32,196 nucleotides of DNA from Bacteroidaceae bacterium (GTDB lineage: Bacteria > Bacteroidota > Bacteroidia > Bacteroidales > Bacteroidaceae). The position numbers and the translations under genes were made by a program. The stretch is from contig JAFYWH010000133.1 of assembly GCA_017558175.1 (NCBI GenBank), positions 1-32,196 of the forward strand, written 5' to 3'. Positions 19,385 through 32,196 of the stretch are shown here, in pieces (position 1 is the stretch's first letter; each line of letters begins with the position of its first letter). The notes below the pieces were generated by a model, which ran no database searches, was not told the DNA's origin, and saw only the letters and a program-made list of their open reading frames with translations.

Positions 19385-20470
19385 TTATTTCCAACAAAAA
19401 GCACCGGGAATGATGCCCACATAAAACTCGTCTATCAACTCCTTGTCCTTGGAATACCGATATATCATGCCTTGTTGCACATAGTCGATGGCATCGGCCA
19501 CATATACATCACCCGTGCGCGGACAGATGGTAAGACCATAATAAAGGGTTCCGTTATAAGGCAGGAAAGGCTCTACCGGTGCACGATCGGCCGTAACATC
19601 CATCTCCCAAACATCATCGTTCAGCCAATAGATCTTGTCTTTCGTGCCATTGAGCTGCACCTCCGATGGCCAGTCGCCAAACTCAAACTTGAAGCGCTTC
19701 TCGATGGTGAAAGTCTCGGCATCGATGCGATAAAGCGATGGAGCCTCGTGTCCGTAGGGCGAACCTTCGTAACCGCCATCTGTCACCGTCCAAAGCTTGT
19801 TGTTGCAGTCCATCACGAGCGATGTAGGCTGAATACCTACTTCCAGTTCATCGACCACCTGGTCGGTCTCGGTATCAATCTTCAAGATGCGGTTCTGGTA
19901 CGACCAACAGTTCACATACACATACTTTCCATACTGCACCATCTGCTCTGTAGAACCACTTTCCATCGTCATGTTCGGACATTCGATGTAGCCGGTTATC
20001 TGATACTTCTTGGGGTTGACGATGAAGATACGATTGTCCCAAATTTGGGTAACATAAGCCTTTTCGTCCGAAATGAAGTGGATGTATCGGGGCGAGGTAA
20101 AGTTTGTGATTCGACCTACTTCCTTGAAGGTGTTGATATCGATGGCAAACACCACATGCGAGTTGTTCACCACCACCCAACCGATGCCGTCGCGTATCAC
20201 CATAGACTGAGCCACATCGCCCAGTTTCATGGCATTGGCGCGATAGAACACTTCGTTCTCTATTTCTTTGGTAGCAGGATTATAGAACGAAAGCGTGGCA
20301 TTGCCATATTGGAAATTACCCTCGTTCGTAATGAACAGCCCCGGCGAAGTGATGTTGAAGTCTTCGTACTCGCCGTAATCCCACTCCATGCAACCGGAAA
20401 GCAACATCCCGAAGGATGCTGCCACCAGTATCATAAATTTACATATATGGATAGAGATTTTCATACTCAT
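19385..20470 (-). CDS. btuG: BtuG-like surface cobalamin-binding beta-propeller lipoprotein (361 aa)
   Basis: The lipoprotein signal ends in LLSGC. The rest is a YncE/DUF5074-type propeller: repeated blade strands such as GLFITNEGNFQYGNATLSFY, IGWVVVNNSHVVFAIDINTF, KAYVTQIWDNRIFIVNPKKY, KYVYVNCWSYQNRILKIDTE and GDVYVADAIDYVQQGMIYRY. BtuG proteins bind B12 with very high affinity on the cell surface and pair with BtuB in gut Bacteroides. The start ATG overlaps the stop of the upstream gene (ATGA) and btuB follows 9 bp later, consistent with a stoichiometric BtuB-BtuG complex. Direct B12 binding is inferred. Confidence 0.85.
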   Translation of the reverse strand: MSMKISIHICKFMILVAASFGMLLSGCMEWDYGEYEDFNITSPGLFITNEGNFQYGNATLSFYNPATKEIENEVFYRANAMKLGDVAQSMVIRDGIGWVVVNNSHVVFAIDINTFKEVGRITNFTSPRYIHFISDEKAYVTQIWDNRIFIVNPKKYQITGYIECPNMTMESGSTEQMVQYGKYVYVNCWSYQNRILKIDTETDQVVDELEVGIQPTSLVMDCNNKLWTVTDGGYEGSPYGHEAPSLYRIDAETFTIEKRFKFEFGDWPSEVQLNGTKDKIYWLNDDVWEMDVTADRAPVEPFLPYNGTLYYGLTICPRTGDVYVADAIDYVQQGMIYRYSKDKELIDEFYVGIIPGAFCWK

Positions 20471-23241: not shown

Positions 23242-23352
23242 TTACATGTCATCCCAAGGTGATTCTTCTTGCTGAGAACCAGCAAAACCTTTTTCCACTT
23301 CTACTTCAATTACTTCCACTACGGGAGCTGTGTAAATTACGTTTTCAATCAT
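23242..23352 (-). CDS. 36-aa small ORF with an E-V repeat and GFAGS motif
   Basis: The first cistron after the cobalamin riboswitch starts MIENVIYTAPVVEVIEVEVE and continues KGFAGSQQEE, ending in SPWDDM. It is acidic, has no signal peptide, and has alternating V/E residues suggesting one beta strand. Short Bacteroides peptides with the pattern 'APxxEVVEIExExGFAxS...W' are familiar to me ahead of surface-protein genes, but I know no function. It lies 33 bp upstream of the DUF4465 gene. It could be a leader peptide for translation control, a small secreted or modified peptide, or a regulator. Confidence 0.7.
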   Translation of the reverse strand: MIENVIYTAPVVEVIEVEVEKGFAGSQQEESPWDDM

Positions 23353-23543: not shown

Positions 23544-23560
23544 AGGTATAATCTCTTAAA

Positions 23561-23754
23561 TGCACAGGTAGGTCTTCTGACTCATCCCCGTTTGTCGCGC
23601 CTTCCCAGCTTTTCGCCAGTGGCAAAGAATGCAACAAACCAAAACTCTTCATGAAAAGAGTCGGGATACACAGCAACAGGAATTGTTCCGGATTCACACC
23701 GGATTCCCTTTTCACTCGTCGGCCAGCAACGTGGCTTCTGAGCTCCTTGTGCAC
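23561..23754 (-). promoter_or_regulatory. Cobalamin riboswitch
   Basis: On the minus strand the conserved aptamer elements appear in order. P1 is TGCACAAGG/CCTGTGCA. Then come GGGAATCCGGTGTGAATCCGG (the paired P3/P4 region), the B12 box GCCACTGG..AAGCTGGGAAGG, and the 3' GATGAGTCAGAAGACC. Vitamin B12 binding normally represses downstream genes, here the whole btu operon. The open frame across this region on the same strand is not a gene; its codons are the aptamer. It starts a few bases after the mapped promoter. Confidence 0.96.
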
Positions 23755-23756
23755 TG

Positions 23757-23787
23757 CAAATGTAAGTGATATTTTTGAACCGACAAA
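23757..23787 (-). promoter_or_regulatory. Promoter of the B12 operon
   Basis: TTTG (23784-23787), exactly 19 bases, TACATTTG (23757-23764) on the minus strand. The predicted transcription start (about 23750) coincides with the first paired bases of the riboswitch, so the aptamer is the very 5' end of the transcript. Confidence 0.8.
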
Positions 23788-24314: not shown

Positions 24315-24758
24315 TTACTCTTCCTCACCACCACCTTCTTCCTCTTCTTCGGCCTCCTTGCTGTACTTCACAGCTACCTTCGAAAAGGTCAACGAAGTCA
24401 AGGCATTGGCGAGCACGCGACCGGGACGGAAGTTGATTTTCGCACGCTTGATGAGGCTCTCGTTGTAGTCTTCCTCGGTGAGAGCGCCCTTGCCGTTGAG
24501 CGACACTTGGAGGGTACAGAGGTCGCCGAGGCGGACGATTTCGCCGTTCTGGATGGCTTCGGCTACCACATCTTCAAGTGCTACAAGCACGGCGTACACA
24601 TCGGCCTTGTTTACGGTACACGAACTCTGGATGCGCTCGGACATTTCGCGGATGTTCACATCGCCTCTGGCTTGCGCCTGGGCATAATACTTGGGTGGGG
24701 TTCCCTTCTCCGAAGGGTTTCTACGAGGGACAACTGAATAGGTTACTGATCTTGCCAT
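24315..24758 (-). CDS. HU-like (HU-HIG type) DNA-binding protein (147 aa)
   Basis: The N-terminal YSVVPRRNPSEKGTPPKYYAQA is typical of the Bacteroidetes HU-HIG proteins. It is followed by helices (VNIREMSERIQSSCTVNKADVYAVLVALEDVVAEAI) and the beta-arm region IVRLGDLCTLQVSLNG. The C-terminus is a Glu/Gly tail (EAEEEEEGGGEEE). It probably binds DNA as a dimer. It is divergent from the DUF4248 gene, with a 10-bp tandem repeat between them. Such HU-like/smalltalk/DUF4248 groups form recurring accessory cassettes in gut Bacteroides. Confidence 0.9.
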   Translation of the reverse strand: MARSVTYSVVPRRNPSEKGTPPKYYAQAQARGDVNIREMSERIQSSCTVNKADVYAVLVALEDVVAEAIQNGEIVRLGDLCTLQVSLNGKGALTEEDYNESLIKRAKINFRPGRVLANALTSLTFSKVAVKYSKEAEEEEEGGGEEE

Positions 24759-24807
24759 AGTTTAGTTATTTAGGTTAATGATTAAATGATTATTGATAGT
24801 TAGTGGT

Positions 24808-24840
24808 TGTCATCCAGAGGAGCTTTAGCGACGAAGGATA
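24808..24840. repeat. Half TGTCATCCAGAG element in the HU-like gene leader
   Basis: TGTCATCCAGAGGAGC followed by TTTAGCGACGAAGGAT matches the inverse of the right arm of the full copy at 31921-32007. It falls between the HU promoter and its start codon and would be transcribed. Confidence 0.65.
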
Positions 24841-24872
24841 ACAGGAAAAGCGGTCTTCGAAGAATCACAATG

Positions 24873-24880
24873 CAAAGATA
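24873..24880 (-). promoter_or_regulatory. -7 box for the HU-like gene
   Basis: TATCTTTG on the minus strand, exact -7. Its -33 region (about 24900-24903) falls at the edge of the decamer repeat array, suggesting regulation through that array. Confidence 0.6.
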
Positions 24881-24900
24881 CAACACTCCGAAACCGCAAT

Positions 24901-24945
24901 GTCCGTTAATGTCTGTTTTTGTCCGTTAATGTCCGTTTTTATCCG
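24901..24945. repeat. GTCCGTTAAT/GTCCGTTTTT decamer tandem array
   Basis: Five consecutive 10-bp units: GTCCGTTAAT, GTCTGTTTTT, GTCCGTTAAT, GTCCGTTTTT, ATCCGAATTA. This is also a 20-bp unit repeated twice. One-helical-turn spacing places each GTCCG on the same DNA face. It lies between the divergent HU-like and DUF4248 promoters. Confidence 0.85.
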
Positions 24946-24972
24946 AATTAAAGTAAAATAGAGCTGAGAATA

Positions 24973-25004
24973 TTTGCACGATAGGTTTATATTTCGTATC
25001 TTTA
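24973..25004 (+). promoter_or_regulatory. Promoter of the DUF4248 gene
   Basis: TTTG (24973-24976), 20-base spacer, TATCTTTA (24997-25004), 34 bp before the ATG. Confidence 0.65.
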
Positions 25005-25038
25005 CAATATCAATCTCACCTAAAAAATCTCCAATAAC

Positions 25039-25251
25039 ATGTTCACATTCCGTACCTATGGCAAGGCCGAACTGGCTTTGCTCTACCAGCCATGCAGCAG
25101 TCCCGACAGCGCAGTCAAGACCTTGAACCGATGGATAAACGGCTGCCCGCTCTTGAAAGCCGAGCTACAATCCATGCAATACAATCCGCGCAGACATACC
25201 TTCCTAAAACCCGAAGTAGAAGCCATTGTACGCCATTTGGGGGAGCCATAA
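25039..25251 (+). CDS. DUF4248 protein (70 aa)
   Basis: The family pattern is clear: FRTYGKAELALLYQP (3-17), AVKTLNRWINGCPLLKAEL (25-43), and the C-terminal RRHTFLKPEVEAIVRHLGEP (51-70). The last 20 residues look like the 'F-x-P-x-E-V-x-x-I-x-x-H-L-G-x-P' ending of DUF4248. It is cytoplasmic and probably helical with a winged-helix feel; function unknown. In relatives it typically neighbours VirE/DUF3987-type primase genes and HU-like/smalltalk genes; here the primase is missing. Confidence 0.88.
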   Translation: MFTFRTYGKAELALLYQPCSSPDSAVKTLNRWINGCPLLKAELQSMQYNPRRHTFLKPEVEAIVRHLGEP

Positions 25252-25342
25252 GCTCCCCCATTCCACAACATTTCCGTCCTTCTCACGCGGTCTCGAAATG
25301 CTTTGCATAAAACATGGAAATATTTGCAATACCTGTCAAGCG

Positions 25343-25488
25343 TTAGGCAATTAGGCAGTTTGGCAGTTTTTTATTTTGCCCCTGAATAGTAGTATAGAAC
25401 TTTTTATTATATATATAATAAACTATTTATTCTAAGATAATACCCCCTTTTAAAATAACTGCCTAACTGCCTAACTGCCCAATGCCCT
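25343..25488. repeat. TTAGGCAG octamer arrays in inverted orientation around an A/T-rich core
   Basis: Three 8-bp units on the left (25343-25366: TTAGGCAA, TTAGGCAG, TTTGGCAG) and four inverse units on the right (25457-25488: AACTGCCT, AACTGCCT, AACTGCCC, AATGCCCT) enclose about 90 bp rich in A and T with long TA runs. No gene is seen. The layout parallels the GTTACAAT array at 8180-8418, with a different octamer. Confidence 0.88.
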
Positions 25489-25492
25489 ATAA

Positions 25493-25534
25493 ACCTTATC
25501 CGTATAAGGTATCCGTATAATATCCGGATAAGGT
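25493..25534 (+). promoter_or_regulatory. Operator-like ATCCGTATA repeat cluster
   Basis: A perfect 10-bp inverted repeat ACCTTATCCG/CGGATAAGGT (25493-25502, 25525-25534) encloses further direct copies of ATCCGTATAA. It lies 20 bp upstream of a -7 box TATCTTTG (25554-25561), so it overlaps the -33 position. It probably controls transcription toward the antirepressor gene 270 bp downstream. Confidence 0.5.
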
Positions 25535-25697
25535 GCACTTGAAAAATACCCCATATCTTTGCTCCCGTAATCACAACGAAGTGGTTGCGGGAGTTTTTGT
25601 CTCCATTCGTTCTTTGACTTGATGATACAATTTCTAATAATCCCCCGGATGGAAGGGGCATAACTCAAAATCCCCCTTCGGAAGGGGAACCCCCATT

Positions 25698-25783
25698 TGT
25701 CACTCAGAGCGTAGCGAAGAGTCTCGAGAACATCCACGTGGATGAACACGAGATCCTTCGTCGCGATGCTCCTCGGGATGACA
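25698..25783. repeat. Full TGTCACTCAGAG palindromic element
   Basis: The left arm TGTCACTCAGAGCGTAGCGA runs into AGAGTCTCGAGAACATCC. The right arm reads GAGATCCTTCGTCGCGATGC and ends in GGGATGACA. It is preceded by CCCCCTTCGGAAGGGG-like hairpins (about 25643-25690). It lies in the long leader of the antirepressor gene; the stretch 25562-25830 otherwise shows nothing. Confidence 0.75.
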
Positions 25784-25830
25784 ATCAAACAAAACAATGA
25801 AATTATTAACCATTTAACACTTTATATATT

Positions 25831-26568
25831 ATGAACGAAATTCAAATTTTCAAGAATGTAGAATTTGGTGCCATCCGCACCATGAGTAACGAACAGGGCG
25901 AAGTGATGTTCTGCGGTAAGGATGTGGCTTTGGCCTTGGGATATTTAAATAGTAGAAAAGCAATAAAGGACCATGTAGATGATGAAGACAAGCTGGAGGA
26001 ACGAATCGTTACCTCAGGTCAGAACAGACATCTGATCTTCATCAACGAATCCGGCCTCTACTCCCTCATCCTCTCGTCGAAGCTCGAAAGCGCCAAGCGA
26101 TTCAAGCATTGGGTAACTGGCGAAGTCCTCCCAAATATCCGTAAACAAGGCGGATACATGATAGCCAAGGAAGGCGAGAGCGACAAGGATATCTTGGATC
26201 GTGCGCTGCAAATCATGCAAACTGCCATCCAGCGCCGTGACGAGGAAATAACCCGCCTGAAACCTCGTGCCAACTATGCCGACCAGGTGCTCGATTCCAT
26301 CGACTGCATCACCACCACACAGCTGGCCGAGGAGCTCGGCATGACCGACCAAGAGCTGAACCGCCGACTCTGCGAGATGCGCATCCAGTACTGGCAAAGC
26401 GGTCAGTACATGCTCTACGCCAAGTATGCCCGCAAAGGTTTGGCCAAGAGCCGCACCCGCATGCATACCACTGCCGATGGACTCTTGTTCGCGGAAGTCT
26501 ACTTGGTGTGGACCGAGCGAGGACGCGAGTTCATCCACCAATTGTTGAACCCAAAGTTGGCAAACTAA
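25831..26568 (+). CDS. Phage-type antirepressor, Bro-N plus KilAC domains (245 aa)
   Basis: The Bro-N domain (about 3-105) shows VMFCGKDVALALGY (25-38), AIKDHVDDEDK and LIFINESGLYSLILSSKLESA (68-88), then FKHWVTGEVLPNIRKQGGYM. The C-terminal KilAC/ANT region (about 155-240) has TTTQLAEELGMTDQELNRRL, a helix-turn-helix-like stretch, and ...TADGLLFAEVYLVWTERGREFI. Such proteins switch prophage repressors off. No repressor, integrase or structural phage gene is seen nearby, so it is a stray or domesticated phage gene. It is flanked by direct repeats at about 25343 and 26606. Confidence 0.93.
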   Translation: MNEIQIFKNVEFGAIRTMSNEQGEVMFCGKDVALALGYLNSRKAIKDHVDDEDKLEERIVTSGQNRHLIFINESGLYSLILSSKLESAKRFKHWVTGEVLPNIRKQGGYMIAKEGESDKDILDRALQIMQTAIQRRDEEITRLKPRANYADQVLDSIDCITTTQLAEELGMTDQELNRRLCEMRIQYWQSGQYMLYAKYARKGLAKSRTRMHTTADGLLFAEVYLVWTERGREFIHQLLNPKLAN

Positions 26569-26746: not shown

Positions 26747-26787
26747 GAGTGGGTCGATTTTAATTTTGACCCACTCCTTCTTTTTTA
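26747..26787. terminator. Bidirectional terminator
   Basis: Perfect 9-bp stem GAGTGGGTC/GACCCACTC (26747-26755 with 26768-26776), followed by CTTCTTTTTTA on the plus strand and by TCTTTTTCTTTTG on the minus strand. It ends the accessory island on one side and the peptidase gene (stop at 26793) on the other. Confidence 0.8.
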
Positions 26788-26792
26788 TATTG

Positions 26793-27239
26793 CTAATCTA
26801 AAAATACATAATGAAGGAAGCGCAAGATAGGCTTCCTCAGTATTCCTATCTTACACCAAAGATAACTTGGCAACTTCCATTTCCAACTATCTACAGAAAT
26901 TGCCTTATCTGATAATCTGATTATGGTCTGTACCCTCCCAATGACATCATGTACCATACATTCTTCTTTCGCAACATAAGAACCATCGCCTTTGATAGTC
27001 AACTTATCACCATCCCTGCGTATTACACGATGCAACAAATGTCTGCCTCTGTATCTGAAAAGGACAACGTCCATAGGTTTCAACTCTTCAGGAAAACAAG
27101 GGTACAATACAACTTCATCCTTTTCGCCCCGTATAAGAGGATACATAGAAGTCCCTTTCAGGCGGAACTGCACCAAACGCCCTGCAGCTATTTCGGTTTC
27201 CACCCAAGCGAAAAACAGGTCATTAGGAATCTGCTTCAT
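26793..27239 (-). CDS. S24/S26-family peptidase (signal-peptidase-like, 148 aa)
   Basis: The serine motif is LKGTSMYPLI (S31). It is followed by DVVLFRYRGRHLLHRVIRR, where H70 occupies the position of the catalytic base in Sec11/SipW-type enzymes, then DKLTIKGDG. No strong N-terminal membrane anchor is visible; weak hydrophobicity at the C-terminus (KPILRFLHYVFLD) may touch the membrane. The start at 27239 is chosen because the longer frame overlaps the kinase-like gene out of phase. It overlaps that gene by 17 bp. As last gene of the PqqD cassette it is the likely leader-peptide protease. Confidence 0.82.
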   Translation of the reverse strand: MKQIPNDLFFAWVETEIAAGRLVQFRLKGTSMYPLIRGEKDEVVLYPCFPEELKPMDVVLFRYRGRHLLHRVIRRDGDKLTIKGDGSYVAKEECMVHDVIGRVQTIIRLSDKAISVDSWKWKLPSYLWCKIGILRKPILRFLHYVFLD

Positions 27240-28086
27240 GGCCGAACACAGTTTGACAAGACAACTGGGCTGCTGCAGCATCAGGCAAACAAGCCAAATG
27301 ATAAAATGGAACGGACGAAAGCAACTGGTTGATGAACGAACTGATGTGATCGTACAACTTTTCATCGTAGGCAAACTCCGGCGGACAAGACGGATGAATG
27401 GCTCCATAGGCTTGCAAAACCGATAGTTTCTGAATCCGGTTGTATGGTGCCTGCGACAAACGGACACAGCCCTTCAGTTCATAGCGTTCCTGCTTGTAAC
27501 AAGGGGTCTTTCCGCTCCACGGACTGCCGTATGCCCATACCTTGCCGTCTTCCACACGCAAGAAAGGACTGTCGTCGTTCAATAGGAAAGCGCCCCCAAT
27601 ATACTCACGCCACAAACGGGTATGGGTACTCTTGCCCGTGCCACTTTCACCCAAGAAGAGCACAGCCTTATCCTTGTAAACAATGCAACTGCTATGGATA
27701 GCCACCGTGCCGTAAGGTGCTACCATCAGCCCCAATCCTACCCACATGGCAAAGCGGTACAAGCGTACGGACCAATTGCCACACATCTGTACCTCTTTCT
27801 CTTGAGCATGGTGCCACAAATGGAAAGGCTCCTCGGCTTCGGGCTTCAAGGTCAGCATAAAACCTTGCTCCGTTCTGCCAAAGGTTCCGATTACATCCTC
27901 ATAAGCAAACTCATATTGCACTTGCTGCATCTCTGGAACATCCGTGCCCTCTACAAAGGAGAAGAGTACCTCTCCTTCCTCTACCAAGAAAGGCTTGAAT
28001 CCCTCTATACACTCCACAGCCTTACACAGGTTTTCTCCCGACACTGCAAAATGGTGTCCTGCTACTTGATATATGTTATTCATCAT
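27223..28086 (-). CDS. HPr-kinase-like protein with P-loop (287 aa)
   Basis: The C-terminal half has the HprK fold motifs: AVLFLGESGTGKSTHTRLW (P-loop GESGTGKS, 146-153), preceded by IHSSCIV (H131), then FLLNDDSPFL (D171-D172), and GSPWSGKTP, the phosphate-side loop seen in HprK-related proteins. The N-terminal half is a beta-rich unknown domain. Related kinases occur with PqqD-like proteins in peptide-modification and PEP-CTERM-associated loci (HPr-rel-A systems) and in some lasso-peptide clusters, where one phosphorylates the peptide. Phosphotransfer on a peptide is therefore the inferred role. The start overlaps the ABC gene stop by 4 bases. Confidence 0.82.
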   Translation of the reverse strand: MMNNIYQVAGHHFAVSGENLCKAVECIEGFKPFLVEEGEVLFSFVEGTDVPEMQQVQYEFAYEDVIGTFGRTEQGFMLTLKPEAEEPFHLWHHAQEKEVQMCGNWSVRLYRFAMWVGLGLMVAPYGTVAIHSSCIVYKDKAVLFLGESGTGKSTHTRLWREYIGGAFLLNDDSPFLRVEDGKVWAYGSPWSGKTPCYKQERYELKGCVRLSQAPYNRIQKLSVLQAYGAIHPSCPPEFAYDEKLYDHISSFINQLLSSVPFYHLACLPDAAAAQLSCQTVFGHEADS

Positions 28087-29708
28087 TCAATCGTTATTAT
28101 CCGGTCACAAAAACTCAGTGAACTTTCACGATGGGCAATGGAAAGGATAGTCAGTCCCTCGTGGTTCTCCTTTAATTGTTTCAATATTCTGTTTATCTCT
28201 TTCTCAGTCGCATTGTCAAGTGCGGAAGTGGCTTCATCCAACAAAAGGACGGACACTTTCTTGTACAAGGCCCGGGCAATACCAATGCGCTGTTTCTGTC
28301 CGCCCGACATTTTTCCGCCAGCCTCGCTCAAAGTAGTATTCACACCATCGGACAAAGATTTCACCCATTTGCACAAACCCAGTTGTTCCAGAATCCCTTC
28401 AATACGGCGGTGGTCTATCTGCTCGCATCCCAAGGCGATGTTCTCGGCCAATGTCCCGTTGAAGATGAACACTTCTTGAGGCACATAACCTATCTGCTTC
28501 ATCCACGAGTCACGAGTAGTACGGGTCAAGGGCGCACCGTCTATCTTCATTTCTCCGGAATCCGGTTCTAATAGTCCGATAAGCAGGTTGAACAAGGTAG
28601 ATTTGCCTACACCACTGGTACCGCAAAATCCCACATATTCTCCCTTTGATATCGAGCAATGGAAATCTTTCAAAATCGACTCGCCACCGGGATAGGCATA
28701 AGAAATCCCTTCCATACGGATTTCATGCTGAAAGGAAATATCCTGTATTTCTGTTGTAATTTCTTCTTGATAATCTTTCAACCCTTCTTCGATAACATCC
28801 AGGCAACAGAGGGCATTCTGAATCTGTGTCCATCCGGACAAGATGGCCCGCAATGCCGGGAGCAGACGAAAGGAAGCTACGGCAAAAACTCCCACCAACA
28901 TCCGCACATCGCCCTGACCAAAGAACACCAACATGGTGAGCCCTACAACTACCGAAAGTTCCGAGAGGAAAAGCGGCAGACGCAGAAGCATATCGAGCTT
29001 CTGACGGTTGTAGCTGATTTTGTCCATGCCCTGCAGAAACGAACGTTGCAAGGTAGGAAATGCACCATTCACCTCCAATTCCACATAACCCCGGAAGGTA
29101 TCGGCCACTACGCGGGCTTGTTCCCGCTTCACCGCCATGTCATCAGCACCATATTTCCTCACCCGCTTGCGTACCCCGAAGAAGTAGAAACACATGAAGG
29201 GTATGAACGATGCAAAGAGGATGAGCACTGTAGCCCCGTTCCATACAAGGAGAGCTATGGTCACCAGAAGTATCAACAATACATCACCAGCCATCCGACA
29301 GATGGGAGCCAACAGGCTGTGGCTGAACGCATAGCACATACCATTGATTTCATAGCCCAACTTATTGCTGCCATGCTCGCGGATGAAAAGCAGTCCCCGG
29401 CTGTAATACGAGGAGAACAAGGAGAAACTCAGCCGGCGGTAGAAGCCAAGCAAGCACTGGTTCTGATAGCGTGTAAAGAAGGTGGAGAGCACACACTTCA
29501 CCAAAATGACCCCCATGGCCAAGAGGCAGAAAAAGACTGCAGCCTCGCTCCTACCTCCTTCGTCAAGCAAGAAATAGAGCACAGGGAGCAGCACCGCCAA
29601 GCCGACAAAGTCGAGCAAGGCTGAACAGAAGACCGTGACAGCCATCTTCAGCACCTTCTTGCGCTCTTCTGCCTGCAGCAGATGATAGATTCTTTTCAAT
29701 AGCTTCAT
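28083..29708 (-). CDS. ABC transporter, fused permease and ATPase (541 aa)
   Basis: Six membrane helices span about 1-310 (for example VTVFCSALLDFVGLAVLLPV and LLILLVTIALLVW), followed by the ATPase: Walker A GTSGVGKST (363-371), Q-loop PQE, signature MSGGQKQR (467-474), Walker B VLLLDEATSALD (487-498) and H-loop H526. No N-terminal C39 peptidase domain is present, unlike many bacteriocin exporters, so any leader must be removed by another enzyme, plausibly the S26 peptidase of the same operon. It exports a peptide or lipid-linked product as a homodimer; the substrate is unknown. Confidence 0.92.
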   Translation of the reverse strand: MKLLKRIYHLLQAEERKKVLKMAVTVFCSALLDFVGLAVLLPVLYFLLDEGGRSEAAVFFCLLAMGVILVKCVLSTFFTRYQNQCLLGFYRRLSFSLFSSYYSRGLLFIREHGSNKLGYEINGMCYAFSHSLLAPICRMAGDVLLILLVTIALLVWNGATVLILFASFIPFMCFYFFGVRKRVRKYGADDMAVKREQARVVADTFRGYVELEVNGAFPTLQRSFLQGMDKISYNRQKLDMLLRLPLFLSELSVVVGLTMLVFFGQGDVRMLVGVFAVASFRLLPALRAILSGWTQIQNALCCLDVIEEGLKDYQEEITTEIQDISFQHEIRMEGISYAYPGGESILKDFHCSISKGEYVGFCGTSGVGKSTLFNLLIGLLEPDSGEMKIDGAPLTRTTRDSWMKQIGYVPQEVFIFNGTLAENIALGCEQIDHRRIEGILEQLGLCKWVKSLSDGVNTTLSEAGGKMSGGQKQRIGIARALYKKVSVLLLDEATSALDNATEKEINRILKQLKENHEGLTILSIAHRESSLSFCDRIITIE

Positions 29709-29714
29709 GACGGG

Positions 29715-30815
29715 TTATCCTCTAAAGATGGTTTCAGGATGACGCACATGGGCCACAAAGGATTTCCAAATCCGTTCAGCCAATGAAGAATTTAGCACCT
29801 TGCTTTTTATTCTCTGTCCATGCAACAAGCGTCGAGTCTTATACAGCAAGATTCCCACTTTATTACAGGTAGGCAATTCGGATGAAAAACGTGGAGAAAG
29901 GATTTCATTCATCATCTCAACAGCAATGTCTTCGCCGCCTTCTACGGGTTGTGAAGTACCCAAGTATTGATTGCACAATCGGGTTAAAGCAGCAAAACCT
30001 GCAAGCAATTTCTTGTCCTTGATTTCTTCGGGAAGATGTAGGCCATAACAACGGAGAATCATCACCCAGTCGCACAGATGGTGCAAGGCCAGTCCGCTAC
30101 CATAGTGCTGCATGGCATGGAAACCTATGAACAACGTGTTGAACAACGGCGACGGTATCATCACCTCACCTTCGGCCAGTCTCACCCGTTCAGGCTGCAT
30201 GTTTTCATGAAGAATGCGATCTACCTGCACGGCTATCTTGTAACTCTCCACATTGAGGAAAGTCTTGTGATTTTCAAAAGGGATTCCCTTGTAATAGAAA
30301 TTGCTGTGCTTCGGGGAATAGGTTTCCACCTCAACGCCCTGCTCCTGCATCAACTTGTCCGCCAAACGATTCGCTTCCTGGTCGCTCATACGGTTCTTGT
30401 CCGCTGAATAGGTGTAGATGTCGATATCGCCTCCTTCGCGATGGCAAGGTACGGGATAGAGAGTCGAGAATCCTACCCCCTTCATCTGCATGGTGGCAAT
30501 GCCATGTTCGGCATAAAAGCGAGTCACTTCATCTACCGCGCTGCAATAACGATGGTATTTCTGCTCATAGGATTCAACAGCTGAAGCCCATGGCAGTTTG
30601 ATAGGACGAGGTGGTTGAAGGTCCTTGGGCAGCCTCATCACACTATCCCAAGCTAAGGCCATAACCCCATGTTTGGCAGCCAACTTGTAACATAGTTTCC
30701 AGTGCTCATGGGTTGCCTTTTCAAAGAATGCCGTCTCGATGTCCTTTTCGTGCAACGACGCTCTCAGCAAGGCCAGAAGCATCTGCACGGAAGTATGCTT
30801 CAGTGTTATTTTCAT
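29715..30815 (-). CDS. Nucleotidyltransferase-fold protein (PF14907-like, 366 aa)
   Basis: The signature MQMKGVGFSTLYPVPCHREGGDIDIYTY (109-136) gives KG (112-113) and the metal-binding D130 and D132 of the nucleotidyltransferase fold. The C-terminal part contains LFNTLFIGFHAMQHYGSGLALHHLCDWVMI (about 235-264), as in the PF14907 group. The start at 30815 (ATG overlapping the upstream TAA as TAATG) is preferred over an earlier in-frame ATG inside the PqqD gene. It probably transfers a nucleotide or modifies a peptide; the substrate is not known. It is 6 bp upstream of the ABC gene. Confidence 0.82.
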   Translation of the reverse strand: MKITLKHTSVQMLLALLRASLHEKDIETAFFEKATHEHWKLCYKLAAKHGVMALAWDSVMRLPKDLQPPRPIKLPWASAVESYEQKYHRYCSAVDEVTRFYAEHGIATMQMKGVGFSTLYPVPCHREGGDIDIYTYSADKNRMSDQEANRLADKLMQEQGVEVETYSPKHSNFYYKGIPFENHKTFLNVESYKIAVQVDRILHENMQPERVRLAEGEVMIPSPLFNTLFIGFHAMQHYGSGLALHHLCDWVMILRCYGLHLPEEIKDKKLLAGFAALTRLCNQYLGTSQPVEGGEDIAVEMMNEILSPRFSSELPTCNKVGILLYKTRRLLHGQRIKSKVLNSSLAERIWKSFVAHVRHPETIFRG

Positions 30816-31078
30816 TAGATGATTCCGCATTTTTGAAGAGATTCTATCCAAGTCTTCGCATCGTGCAAAGCCTGTTCTTCGCCAATACCATAAGTATCTA
30901 CCAACACCTTTGCTGCATCTTCTGTAGTAAATTCGCGCTCTGCCAATGCCTCATAAAGTAAGCGTGCAGACGCATTCAACGAAATGATACGGGTCATATT
31001 CACATTAGCCGTACCTTGATTCACCACAATGGTTTCACCGGCTATTTCACGGATTTTATAATTCGAATTGATTTTCAT
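30815..31078 (-). CDS. PqqD-family RiPP-recognition protein (87 aa)
   Basis: A stand-alone PqqD/RRE-like protein: IREIAGETIVVNQGTANVNMTRIISLNASARLLYEALAER is the strand-turn-helix of the family, followed by FTTEDAAKVLVDTYGI and ALHDAKTWIESLQKCGII. PqqD domains bind leader peptides and present them to modifying enzymes. It is first gene of a five-gene operon and sits behind a -7 box at 31105. No radical-SAM enzyme (the usual PqqE partner) is present, so the modification is of another kind. Confidence 0.9.
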   Translation of the reverse strand: MKINSNYKIREIAGETIVVNQGTANVNMTRIISLNASARLLYEALAEREFTTEDAAKVLVDTYGIGEEQALHDAKTWIESLQKCGII

Positions 31079-31104: not shown

Positions 31105-31112
31105 CAAAGTTA
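31105..31112 (-). promoter_or_regulatory. -7 box for the PqqD operon
   Basis: TAACTTTG on the minus strand, exact -7 match, 27 bases before the PqqD start codon. The -33 is poor, and the upstream region is A/T-rich. No small precursor ORF fits between this box and the start. Confidence 0.5.
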
Positions 31113-31150: not shown

Positions 31151-31903
31151 TTATATCCCCTTATACTGTCCCTTATTCTTCGTACGGCTACCATACTGGA
31201 TGGCATGTTGCGGACAAACATGATAACAAGCTAAGCACATGGTGCAATCCGCTCCCCACTGAGGCTTGCCCTCCACTTTAATATTATGCACCGGACAACG
31301 CTGCTCACACAAGCCACAAGACACGCAGGCATCCGTAGCATGGAATGGCTTGGGCGACATCAGAAACTTGCGGAAAAGGCCTCCCAACACGTAGGTCTTG
31401 ATCTTCGGGAAAGCACCCTCGAAACAACCGTGCTTATCCATCACTACCTTACGGGATAGTTCCTCGCTAATGAAATTGACACGAGCGGCAGCATTGTCAT
31501 TCTTACGTTTCAGTTCATCCTCATCATCAATATCAAATCCAGGCAGACAGACATACGTATCAGGCATCAAGATTGAATAGCTGGCATGGCACTTCCACCC
31601 CTTGGCCGACAAGGCAGACATGAAGACATCGGCGGTCTTACCGGTATCATCCCCACAAGTACATACAAAGTAAAGATAGGCAGGTTTAGGCATCTTCATC
31701 CGGCGGACAAAGTCCATCACAATCTTAGGTGGTTCCCAACCATAAACGGGAAACACAAAGCCAACTCGCTCACCTTCTACTGGAGTATACACCATATCTG
31801 TCCGGATAGCTTCAGCAATTGAAACCACCCGATCATTAAGCATAGTTGCCAACTTGCGGGCTACCCATGCCGAATTCCCTACACCTGAAAAATAGAATAT
31901 CAT
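31151..31903 (-). CDS. EFR1-type flavodoxin-ferredoxin fusion protein (250 aa)
   Basis: The N-terminal flavodoxin-like fold starts MIFYFSGVGNSAWVARKLA, the FMN-phosphate loop SGVGNS (6-11), with VFPVYGWEPP and CTCGDDTG. The C-terminus binds two 4Fe-4S clusters: C193, C196, C199, C203 (CVSCGLCEQRC) and C220, C223, C226, C230 (CTMCLACYHVC). Such EFR1 proteins shuttle electrons; the partner is unknown. The start at 31903 was chosen because the longer frame runs through a palindromic repeat. It lies 72 bp upstream of the PqqD operon, in the same direction, and could supply electrons to it, but a separate role is equally possible. Confidence 0.88.
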   Translation of the reverse strand: MIFYFSGVGNSAWVARKLATMLNDRVVSIAEAIRTDMVYTPVEGERVGFVFPVYGWEPPKIVMDFVRRMKMPKPAYLYFVCTCGDDTGKTADVFMSALSAKGWKCHASYSILMPDTYVCLPGFDIDDEDELKRKNDNAAARVNFISEELSRKVVMDKHGCFEGAFPKIKTYVLGGLFRKFLMSPKPFHATDACVSCGLCEQRCPVHNIKVEGKPQWGADCTMCLACYHVCPQHAIQYGSRTKNKGQYKGI

Positions 31904-31920
31904 AATCTTTATAGTCCTAA

Positions 31921-32007
31921 TGTCATTCAGAGCGAAGCGAAGAATCTCGAAAACATCCCCACTATATGTCATCGAGATTCTTCGTCGCTCTGCTCCTCTG
32001 AATGACA
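31921..32007. repeat. Full TGTCATTCAGAG palindromic element
   Basis: Best copy in the window. The left arm TGTCATTCAGAGCGAAGCGA then AGAATCTCGA is mirrored by the right arm TCGAGATTCTTCGTCGCTCT then GCTCCTCTGAATGACA, with a loop of about 20 bp. It lies just upstream of the EFR1 gene. Confidence 0.85.
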
Positions 32008-32021
32008 AATAGAAATATAAT

Positions 32022-32052
32022 AAAAAAAGCGATGCTAACTGAATAGCATCGC
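32022..32052 (-). terminator. Terminator of a gene beyond the right edge
   Basis: Perfect 9-bp minus-strand stem GCGATGCTA/TAGCATCGC (32029-32037 with 32044-32052) followed by TTTTTTT. It points to a leftward gene or transcript ending near 32055. A weaker second hairpin with CGCATCA...GGTGCG and a T-run lies at about 32063-32090. Confidence 0.75.
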
Positions 32053-32053
32053 C

Positions 32054-32196
32054 TCTATAAAAAAGCCGCACCAGTGATGCGATGAAACTCCGAATGACAG
32101 GTTTTGAGTGCTCTCCCCCTTTGTAATCCACCGGCATAAATGCTACCCGAAGGCGTGGCCCGCCATTGGAAGATGAAGCTTTGTCTCGGTATTTCT
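32054..32196. other. Right edge without a supportable gene
   Basis: Apart from the second hairpin noted above, no reading frame here has coding character. The minus-strand frame that continues toward 32137 is formed by repeat DNA, not a gene. Confidence 0.5.

Follow-up and report, generated by a model that had tools for sequence, protein, structure and literature searches.

A Five-Gene Cassette of a Bacteroidaceae Bacterium as a Probable Counterpart of the LPP Machinery, with Candidate Precursor Peptides Encoded beside Surface Lipoproteins

The window analyzed here comprises positions 1-32,196 of contig JAFYWH010000133.1 of a Bacteroidaceae bacterium (assembly GCA_017558175.1). Between positions 26793 and 31078, its minus strand carries one tight unit of five genes in the order PqqD protein, nucleotidyltransferase, ATP-binding cassette (ABC) exporter, HprK-like kinase and S26 peptidase. 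This cassette is probably the Bacteroidota counterpart of the machinery for linear polyphosphorylated peptides (LPP). As such, it would be a central unit that matures and exports short peptides, the genes of which often lie at other sites in the genome. The LPP clusters of ribosomally synthesized and post-translationally modified peptides (RiPPs), published in May 2026 for Bacillota, are defined by the same core set: an SpI peptidase, a discrete RiPP recognition element (RRE), an HprK-like kinase, an NTP (nucleoside triphosphate) transferase and an MsbA-like transporter (PMC13381572). A RiPP-like pathway that uses phosphorylation rather than radical S-adenosylmethionine chemistry, as proposed by a first-pass annotation of the DNA, is well supported by sequence comparison, and its likely chemistry can be read from LPP and lasso peptide biochemistry.

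Gene Content and Organization of the Cassette

The cassette and its flanking signals comprise the following features:

30815..31078, minus strand: discrete RRE (PqqD family), 87 residues; PF05402, 41.8 bits (cut-off 23.4)
29715..30815, minus strand: PF14907 nucleotidyltransferase, 366 residues; 145.2 bits (cut-off 31.2)
28083..29708, minus strand: ABC exporter (permease and ATPase), 541 residues, without C39 peptidase match; PF00005, 117.9 bits (cut-off 25)
27223..28086, minus strand: HprK-like peptide kinase, 287 residues; motifs, TIGR04352 below cut-off
26793..27239, minus strand: S26 (SipW-like) leader peptidase, 148 residues; motifs, homologues, fold
26747..26776, minus strand: terminator-like hairpin 3' of the S26 gene; the scan lists it on the plus strand only, and the T-rich tail on the minus strand was read by eye
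31105..31112, minus strand: possible Bacteroides -7 box TAACTTTG 5' of pqqD

The junctions are as first annotated: TAATG with one base in common, a gap of 6 bp, a 4-bp ATGA overlap and a 17-bp overlap. Since a hairpin follows the S26 gene and the TAACTTTG box, a possible -7 box (consensus TAnnTTTG), precedes pqqD, the cassette has the appearance of a single transcription unit. The exporter gave MsbA/PglK-like NCBIfam matches, all under cut-off, and the Pfam scan found no C39 peptidase domain in it, in agreement with the first-pass annotation. Two of the five proteins were only weakly recognized by family models. The S26 protein reached 19.5 of 47 bits with TIGR02227 (E 7e-4) and an E value of 0.028 with PF10502; its assignment is based on motif, homologues and predicted fold, that of the kinase on motif and homologues. 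The assembly, which is 86% complete, contains one kinase match and, at E ≤ 0.01, one PF05402 match, the PqqD protein of the cassette.

A P-loop kinase resembling HprK might indicate a true HPr kinase/phosphorylase regulatory module. This explanation is extremely improbable and was rejected: the Pfam HprK family gave no match to the cassette kinase, TIGR04352 stayed far under its cut-off (15.5 of 200 bits), and the kinase is tied to an RRE and an S26 peptidase. A likeness to HPr-rel-A loci, which the first-pass annotation had drawn, extends to the pairing of kinase and PqqD protein. Membership was likewise rejected since TIGR04353 (15.7 of 35 bits), like TIGR04352, remained far under cut-off.

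Conservation of the Cassette in Bacteroidota

A kinase search in 295 genomes of the order yielded 43 positive genomes, for 20 of which the surrounding region of up to 20 kb was taken. Eighty further loci, all titled Bacteroidota, were drawn from the GTDB collection (the best 80 of 588 confirmed). The resulting set of 101 loci, chosen by kinase, consists of the window and L031-L130. Within 10 kb of the kinase gene, S26 was encoded in 96, PqqD in 73, the ABC exporter in 72 and the nucleotidyltransferase in 30 of the 101 loci, and 24 contained all five genes. The order of the genes differed between loci and lineages. The five-gene grouping is not due to chance.

The catalytic residues were mostly retained along with the genes, as the first-pass annotation had expected of a joint pathway. 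Of 102 kinase segments, 101 contained Walker A and 99 contained NDD. The Ser-His-Asp pattern was present in 88 of 96 S26 proteins, KG..GDxD in 27 of 30 nucleotidyltransferases and N..Y..D in 70 of 73 PqqD proteins. Invariant positions were SGTGKSTH, NDD and PW.G in the kinase alignment (A1, 17 rows), S31, H70 and G84-D85 in the S26 alignment (A2, 16 rows) and K112-G113, D130 and D132 in the nucleotidyltransferase alignment (A4, 12 rows).

BLAST clustering of the neighbours revealed no family beyond the five that was common to more than 12 of the 101 loci; the families shared at lower frequency appear, judged by eye, to be common neighbourhoods of related genomes. In L041, L042 and L251, read by eye from sequence, the cassette genes lie amid apparent glycosyltransferase and polysaccharide export (exopolysaccharide) loci, and polysaccharide gene neighbourhoods have also been reported for LPP clusters of Bacillota (PMC13381572). 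The kinase profile matched 164 of 201 genomes in a Bacteroidaceae sample, although only 15 of 395 in a sample of the whole phylum, so this RiPP-like pathway may be widespread among gut Bacteroidaceae.

Relation to LPP and Lasso Peptide Systems

In the LPP system, LppK phosphorylates Ser3 of the core, LppS (Ser-His-Asp) cuts off the leader, aided by LppB, and activity of LppN was undetected in the heterologous host (PMC13381572). The cassette shares with lpp of Paenibacillus alginolyticus the five core genes, a SipW-like peptidase and, as described below, a YxxP leader followed by Ser. The S26 protein, which the first-pass annotation had put forward as a stand-in leader peptidase, corresponds to LppS. 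The combination of ABC exporter and S26 peptidase, then regarded as unusual, is not unprecedented because the published LPP core set contains both. The system differs from LPP in its Bacteroidota host and in its often scattered precursor genes beside surface lipoproteins. LPP clusters and paeninodins are said to be restricted to Bacillota, and the peptidase network is called 'predominantly' Bacillota; the term 'bacteroid' is absent from the main text of that paper (PMC13381572). No paper on this system in Bacteroidota was found in a literature search that left most subscription journals and bioRxiv outside its reach. The main text of a Bacteroidales RiPP survey (PMC10352776) contains none of the terms 'signal peptidase', 'nucleotidyltransferase' and 'S26'.

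A profile of 16 RREs was compared with PDB sequences and scored the lasso RREs TfuB1 (35 bits), TbiB1 (26 bits) and PbaB1 (23 bits) above LppB (17 bits), a ranking by profile score. The AlphaFold2 model of the window RRE (pLDDT, i.e., predicted local distance difference test, 85) likewise matched best to lasso RREs in complex with a leader peptide (TbiB1, E 7e-4; TfuB1, E 2e-3; template modelling (TM) score about 0.7). Three residues are invariant in the RRE alignment (A3). In the window they are N35, Y63 and D73, and they align, in our own alignment and the numbering of the paper, with LppB N33, Y60 and D70, of which N33 fixes the kink at the leader Pro, Y60 lines the pocket for the leader Tyr and D70 hydrogen-bonds this Tyr (PMC13381572). 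The model of the S26 protein (pLDDT 93) matched LexA, SipA, SpsB and SPC (E 3e-4 to 1e-2, TM at most 0.52). Its S31, H70 and D85 may correspond to LppS S29, H68 and D93 (PMC13381572); this match is tentative because the His-Asp spacing differs. An N-terminal transmembrane helix was not evident by eye in the S26 protein, so action in the cytosol is likely.

The closeness of the RRE to lasso B1 proteins in sequence and fold could suggest a decayed lasso peptide cluster. Clusters of the phosphorylated or glycosylated lasso peptides paeninodin and pseudomycoidin do share a discrete RRE, an HprK-like kinase, a nucleotidyltransferase and an ABC exporter, the kinase and nucleotidyltransferase being lasso tailoring genes, and the nucleotidyltransferase gene of pseudomycoidin is required for placing a hexose on the phosphate (PMC8498205, PMC9266682). 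However, they differ by a B2 protease and a macrolactam cyclase, which are not among the cassette genes, where S26 takes the place of B2. Neither was recognized by eye in the neighbour clusters of at least four loci, for which one example each was viewed and no dedicated models were searched. With S26 instead of B2, catalytic motifs widely kept and no further neighbour family in more than 12 loci, a lasso remnant is very unlikely and was rejected.

A Family of Short Peptides with a YxxP Leader

The alignment of RRE residues with LppB motivated a search for YxxP leaders. Short open reading frames (ORFs) near the cassettes were first scanned loosely for [YW]..P, which gave 204 candidates, mostly noise; among these, a family was recognized by eye. 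A stricter scan gave 31 matches, of which 8 were dropped by eye as spurious and 23, including one in the window, were kept. The search of homologous flanks for conserved short ORFs, suggested with the first-pass annotation, did reveal a family. The LPP leader motif itself, scanned in the window as well as in the first 20 loci, gave no match in its strict form and no convincing match in looser forms.

23242..23352, minus strand: candidate precursor peptide, 36 residues, MIENVIYTAPVVEVIEVEVEKGFAGSQQEESPWDDM; stricter motif scan of short ORFs

The predicted leader of this peptide is MIENVIYTAPVVEVIEVEVEKGF (YxxP), the predicted core AGSQQEESPWDDM and the predicted phosphosite Ser26. It matched the family profile with an E value of 1.8e-11, a model to which it contributes a row itself. 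The first-pass annotation had seen no precursor; this holds for the cassette, but not for the window, where the ORF lies 3.4 kb downstream. Most likely, this short YxxP-leader peptide encoded in the same window is the substrate, rather than a larger protein.

Similar ORFs were found repeatedly next to cassettes, in some cases immediately 5' of the kinase gene. They encode roughly 30-72 residues with the leader Y-x-x-P-x-(V/I)-E-(V/I)-(I/V)-E-(V/I) and variable, mostly acidic tails. When 46 members were aligned on Tyr, Y and P were invariant, a consequence of the search pattern, EV(I/V)E(V/I) was repeated, and in 45 of the 46 a Ser followed 18-21 residues after the leader Tyr. LPP precursors are defined as peptides of 35-200 residues with a constant N-terminus and a variable C-terminus (PMC13381572); the family shows the same conserved N-terminus and variable C-terminus, and some of its ORFs are shorter (30-34 residues).

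The strict motif occurred in 14 ORFs in 100 loci as compared to none in five shuffled sets and none in 200 window shuffles. The loose motif occurred 30 times in the 100 loci as compared to 5-11 times in the shuffled sets. The shuffles preserve dinucleotide frequencies only approximately.

The precursor profiles and the kinase tended to occur in the same genomes, with overlaps counted by hand from lists and p values that ignore phylogeny. In the order sample, profile A5 matched 27 of 295 genomes, of which 23 were kinase-positive (43 of 295 overall; p 1e-18). After removal of the 7 genomes known to supply rows of A5, 16 of 20 were kinase-positive (p 4e-13). In the family sample, profile A6 matched 72 of 201 genomes, 70 of them kinase-positive (164 of 201 overall; p 3e-6), and at least 3 of these 201 genomes (the window's own, G258 and G742) supplied rows of A6.

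These qualifications of the counts weigh against the assignment of the short ORFs as substrates of the cassette, as do several further observations. The strict motif was written after the matches had been seen, and 31 of 200 window shuffles contained one or more matches to the loose motif, which had led to the window ORF. A precursor was detected in only 70 of 164 kinase-positive genomes of the family sample and 23 of 43 of the order sample, leaving 94 and 20, respectively, without one. Conversely, six precursor-positive genomes, two of them more than 90% complete, showed no credible kinase on a recheck at E 0.01, which gave two weak P-loop matches in G293. A terminator-like site and other genes separate the window precursor from the cassette; LPP precursors are found in, or a few kb from, their cluster. 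Of the LPP leader YxxPxVLxHQxIxFETxxS (PMC13381572), Y, P and the approximate spacing to Ser are present, while HQxIxFET is absent. Finally, a nucleotidyltransferase gene was not found within 10 kb of the kinase in 71 of the 101 loci.

Pairing of Precursor Genes with Surface Lipoprotein Genes

Four precursor ORFs were found in the genome of the window. Each lies on a different contig and immediately precedes a lipoprotein gene, with gaps of 33, 14, 19 and 17 bp. The lipobox pattern is present in three of these partners; the fourth (L181) matches PF13149. An extended case was found in genome G829:

G829:C1:1793000-1852999: stretch with nine precursor/lipoprotein pairs (L242-L244)

Within these 60 kb, nine precursors, each before a lipoprotein of 756-1104 residues, surround genes for ABC exporter, HprK-like kinase and S26, with the PqqD and nucleotidyltransferase genes about 25 kb away in the same stretch. 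Mean identity among the nine pairs was 92% for the leader and 35% for the core. The lipoproteins share their N-termini, and a Pfam search of four of them matched no family.

In total, 86 distinct precursor segments of at least 18 bits were evaluated, which include the model's own rows and paralogues. The next ORF within 250 bp encoded a strict-lipobox protein in 36 segments, compared to a lipobox rate of 148 in 2437 control ORFs (6.1%), and the kinase, as recognized from the listing, in 9. Less favourably for the pairing, 26 segments had no ORF of at least 100 residues starting within 250 bp, 10 had another ORF, some of these being lipoproteins missed by the lipobox pattern, and 5 lay at an edge. 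In one set, 4 of 10 partner-side proteins scored above the cut-off of PF13149 (fimbrillin-like); none of eight further ones did. In some more distant relatives (L164-L168, L173, L174 and L177), viewed by eye, the precursor comes after the end of a large protein that looks secreted, rather than before a lipoprotein gene.

The lipoprotein pairing is a new element relative to LPP. We tentatively propose that one central Bacteroidales machine serves dispersed peptide/lipoprotein pairs, in which the phosphorylated, perhaps glycosylated, core could be a dedicated partner, cap or ligand of its own lipoprotein, including fimbrillin-like proteins and the riboswitch-controlled DUF4465 protein (of a B12-binding family) described below. 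It is conceivable, though less likely than not, that the ORFs are precursors and the pairing is without function, the peptides being free signals or antimicrobials that travel with surface loci. Such an origin would suit the 9 segments beside the kinase and the 26 before no long ORF. In the genome with nine pairs, core similarity also correlates with lipoprotein similarity (Mantel r 0.54, p 0.005), in part owing to one close pair, and duplication of pairs alone would yield such a correlation. However, all four precursors found in the window's genome directly precede a lipoprotein gene, as against a lipobox control rate of 6.1%, and the partner types vary between fimbrillin-like and DUF4465.

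Alternatively, the cassette might modify a larger protein (for example, a fimbrillin-like lipoprotein or a capsule component), with the short ORFs being upstream regulatory ORFs of the lipoprotein genes. The cassettes amid polysaccharide genes would agree with this, as would the many short ORFs located tens of bases before lipoproteins. Nevertheless, this is unlikely: the YxxP leader fits the invariant RRE residues, 9 of 86 precursors stand directly before the kinase, and the leader is constant while the core varies. In addition, the window precursor and that of L255, compared from Tyr onwards, have 7 identical, 11 synonymously and 12 nonsynonymously changed codons.

The Candidate Precursor Heads a Corrinoid-Uptake-Type Operon

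The candidate precursor is the first gene downstream of a cobalamin riboswitch. The other elements of this gene run are:

23550..23765, minus strand: cobalamin riboswitch upstream of precursor and lipoprotein; RF00174, 76.3 bits
21511..23208, minus strand: partner lipoprotein of the precursor, with a C-terminal DUF4465; PF14717, 90.9 bits
20467..21441, minus strand: lipoprotein-like protein, 324 residues; no Pfam family above cut-off
19385..20470, minus strand: DUF5074 beta-propeller-like protein; PF16819, 78.9 bits
17345..19375, minus strand: TonB-dependent receptor, BtuB-like by context; PF00593, 117 bits, and PF07715, 46.1 bits

The run from 23765 to 17345 on the minus strand thus reads riboswitch, precursor, DUF4465 lipoprotein, lipoprotein-like protein, DUF5074 protein and TonB receptor. 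The DUF5074 protein is presumably BtuG-like. By sequence, the run is a corrinoid-uptake-type operon for which binding of vitamin B12 is predicted. DUF4465 is the family of the B12-binding BtuJ proteins (PMC13398666). The likeness to cobamide uptake operons of Bacteroides (BtuJ/BtuG/BtuB) lies in the riboswitch, DUF4465, DUF5074 and the TonB receptor, which here adjoin a precursor gene; a RiPP-like precursor before a B12-binding lipoprotein, as present in the window, goes unmentioned in the available portions of PMC12751083, PMC13398666 and PMC8941943.

Matches to the DUF4465 lipoprotein were obtained in 4 of 151 family genomes, including the genome of the window. L255 (G775, another genus) was the one relative inspected for a precursor. 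There, a precursor with a core ending in SQQEPSPWEDM, compared to SQQEESPWDDM in the window, stands before the 58%-identical partner, which has a sub-cut-off match to the fimbrillin-like PF13149 (22.2 of 27 bits); SQQExSPWxDM is common to both cores. A cobalamin riboswitch was found in none of seven cassette loci and none of seven precursor loci, the fetched L255 stretch included; the link to the riboswitch is therefore limited to the window.

Proposed Mechanism

By analogy with LPP and lasso systems, the PqqD protein would bind the YxxP leader as an RRE, and the kinase would place one or more phosphates on the core Ser (A-x-S). The S26 peptidase, together with the RRE, would cut just before A-x-S in the cytosol. 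Where present, the nucleotidyltransferase might attach a sugar or nucleotide to the phosphate, and the ABC exporter would carry the core into the periplasm. More speculatively, the exported peptide might act with the surface lipoprotein of the adjoining gene, here the DUF4465 protein under the cobalamin riboswitch. The leader motif allows substrates to be found from sequence, and the pairing with surface lipoproteins and a B12 uptake operon points to a possible function at the cell surface, which bears on the biological role of phosphorylated RiPPs.

Additional Features of the Window

The plasmid comparison gave one 2% DNA match, and no match for the precursor. At the edge of the window, an Rfam Bacteroidales-1 (suggested 6S) RNA (32058-32195, minus strand) overlaps the 5' part of an EFR1-family ferredoxin frame (31151-32137). 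Between cassette and precursor (24315-26568), a HU-HIG DNA-binding protein (minus strand) and a Bro-N/KilAC antirepressor-like protein (plus strand) are encoded, perhaps as the trace of a mobile element.

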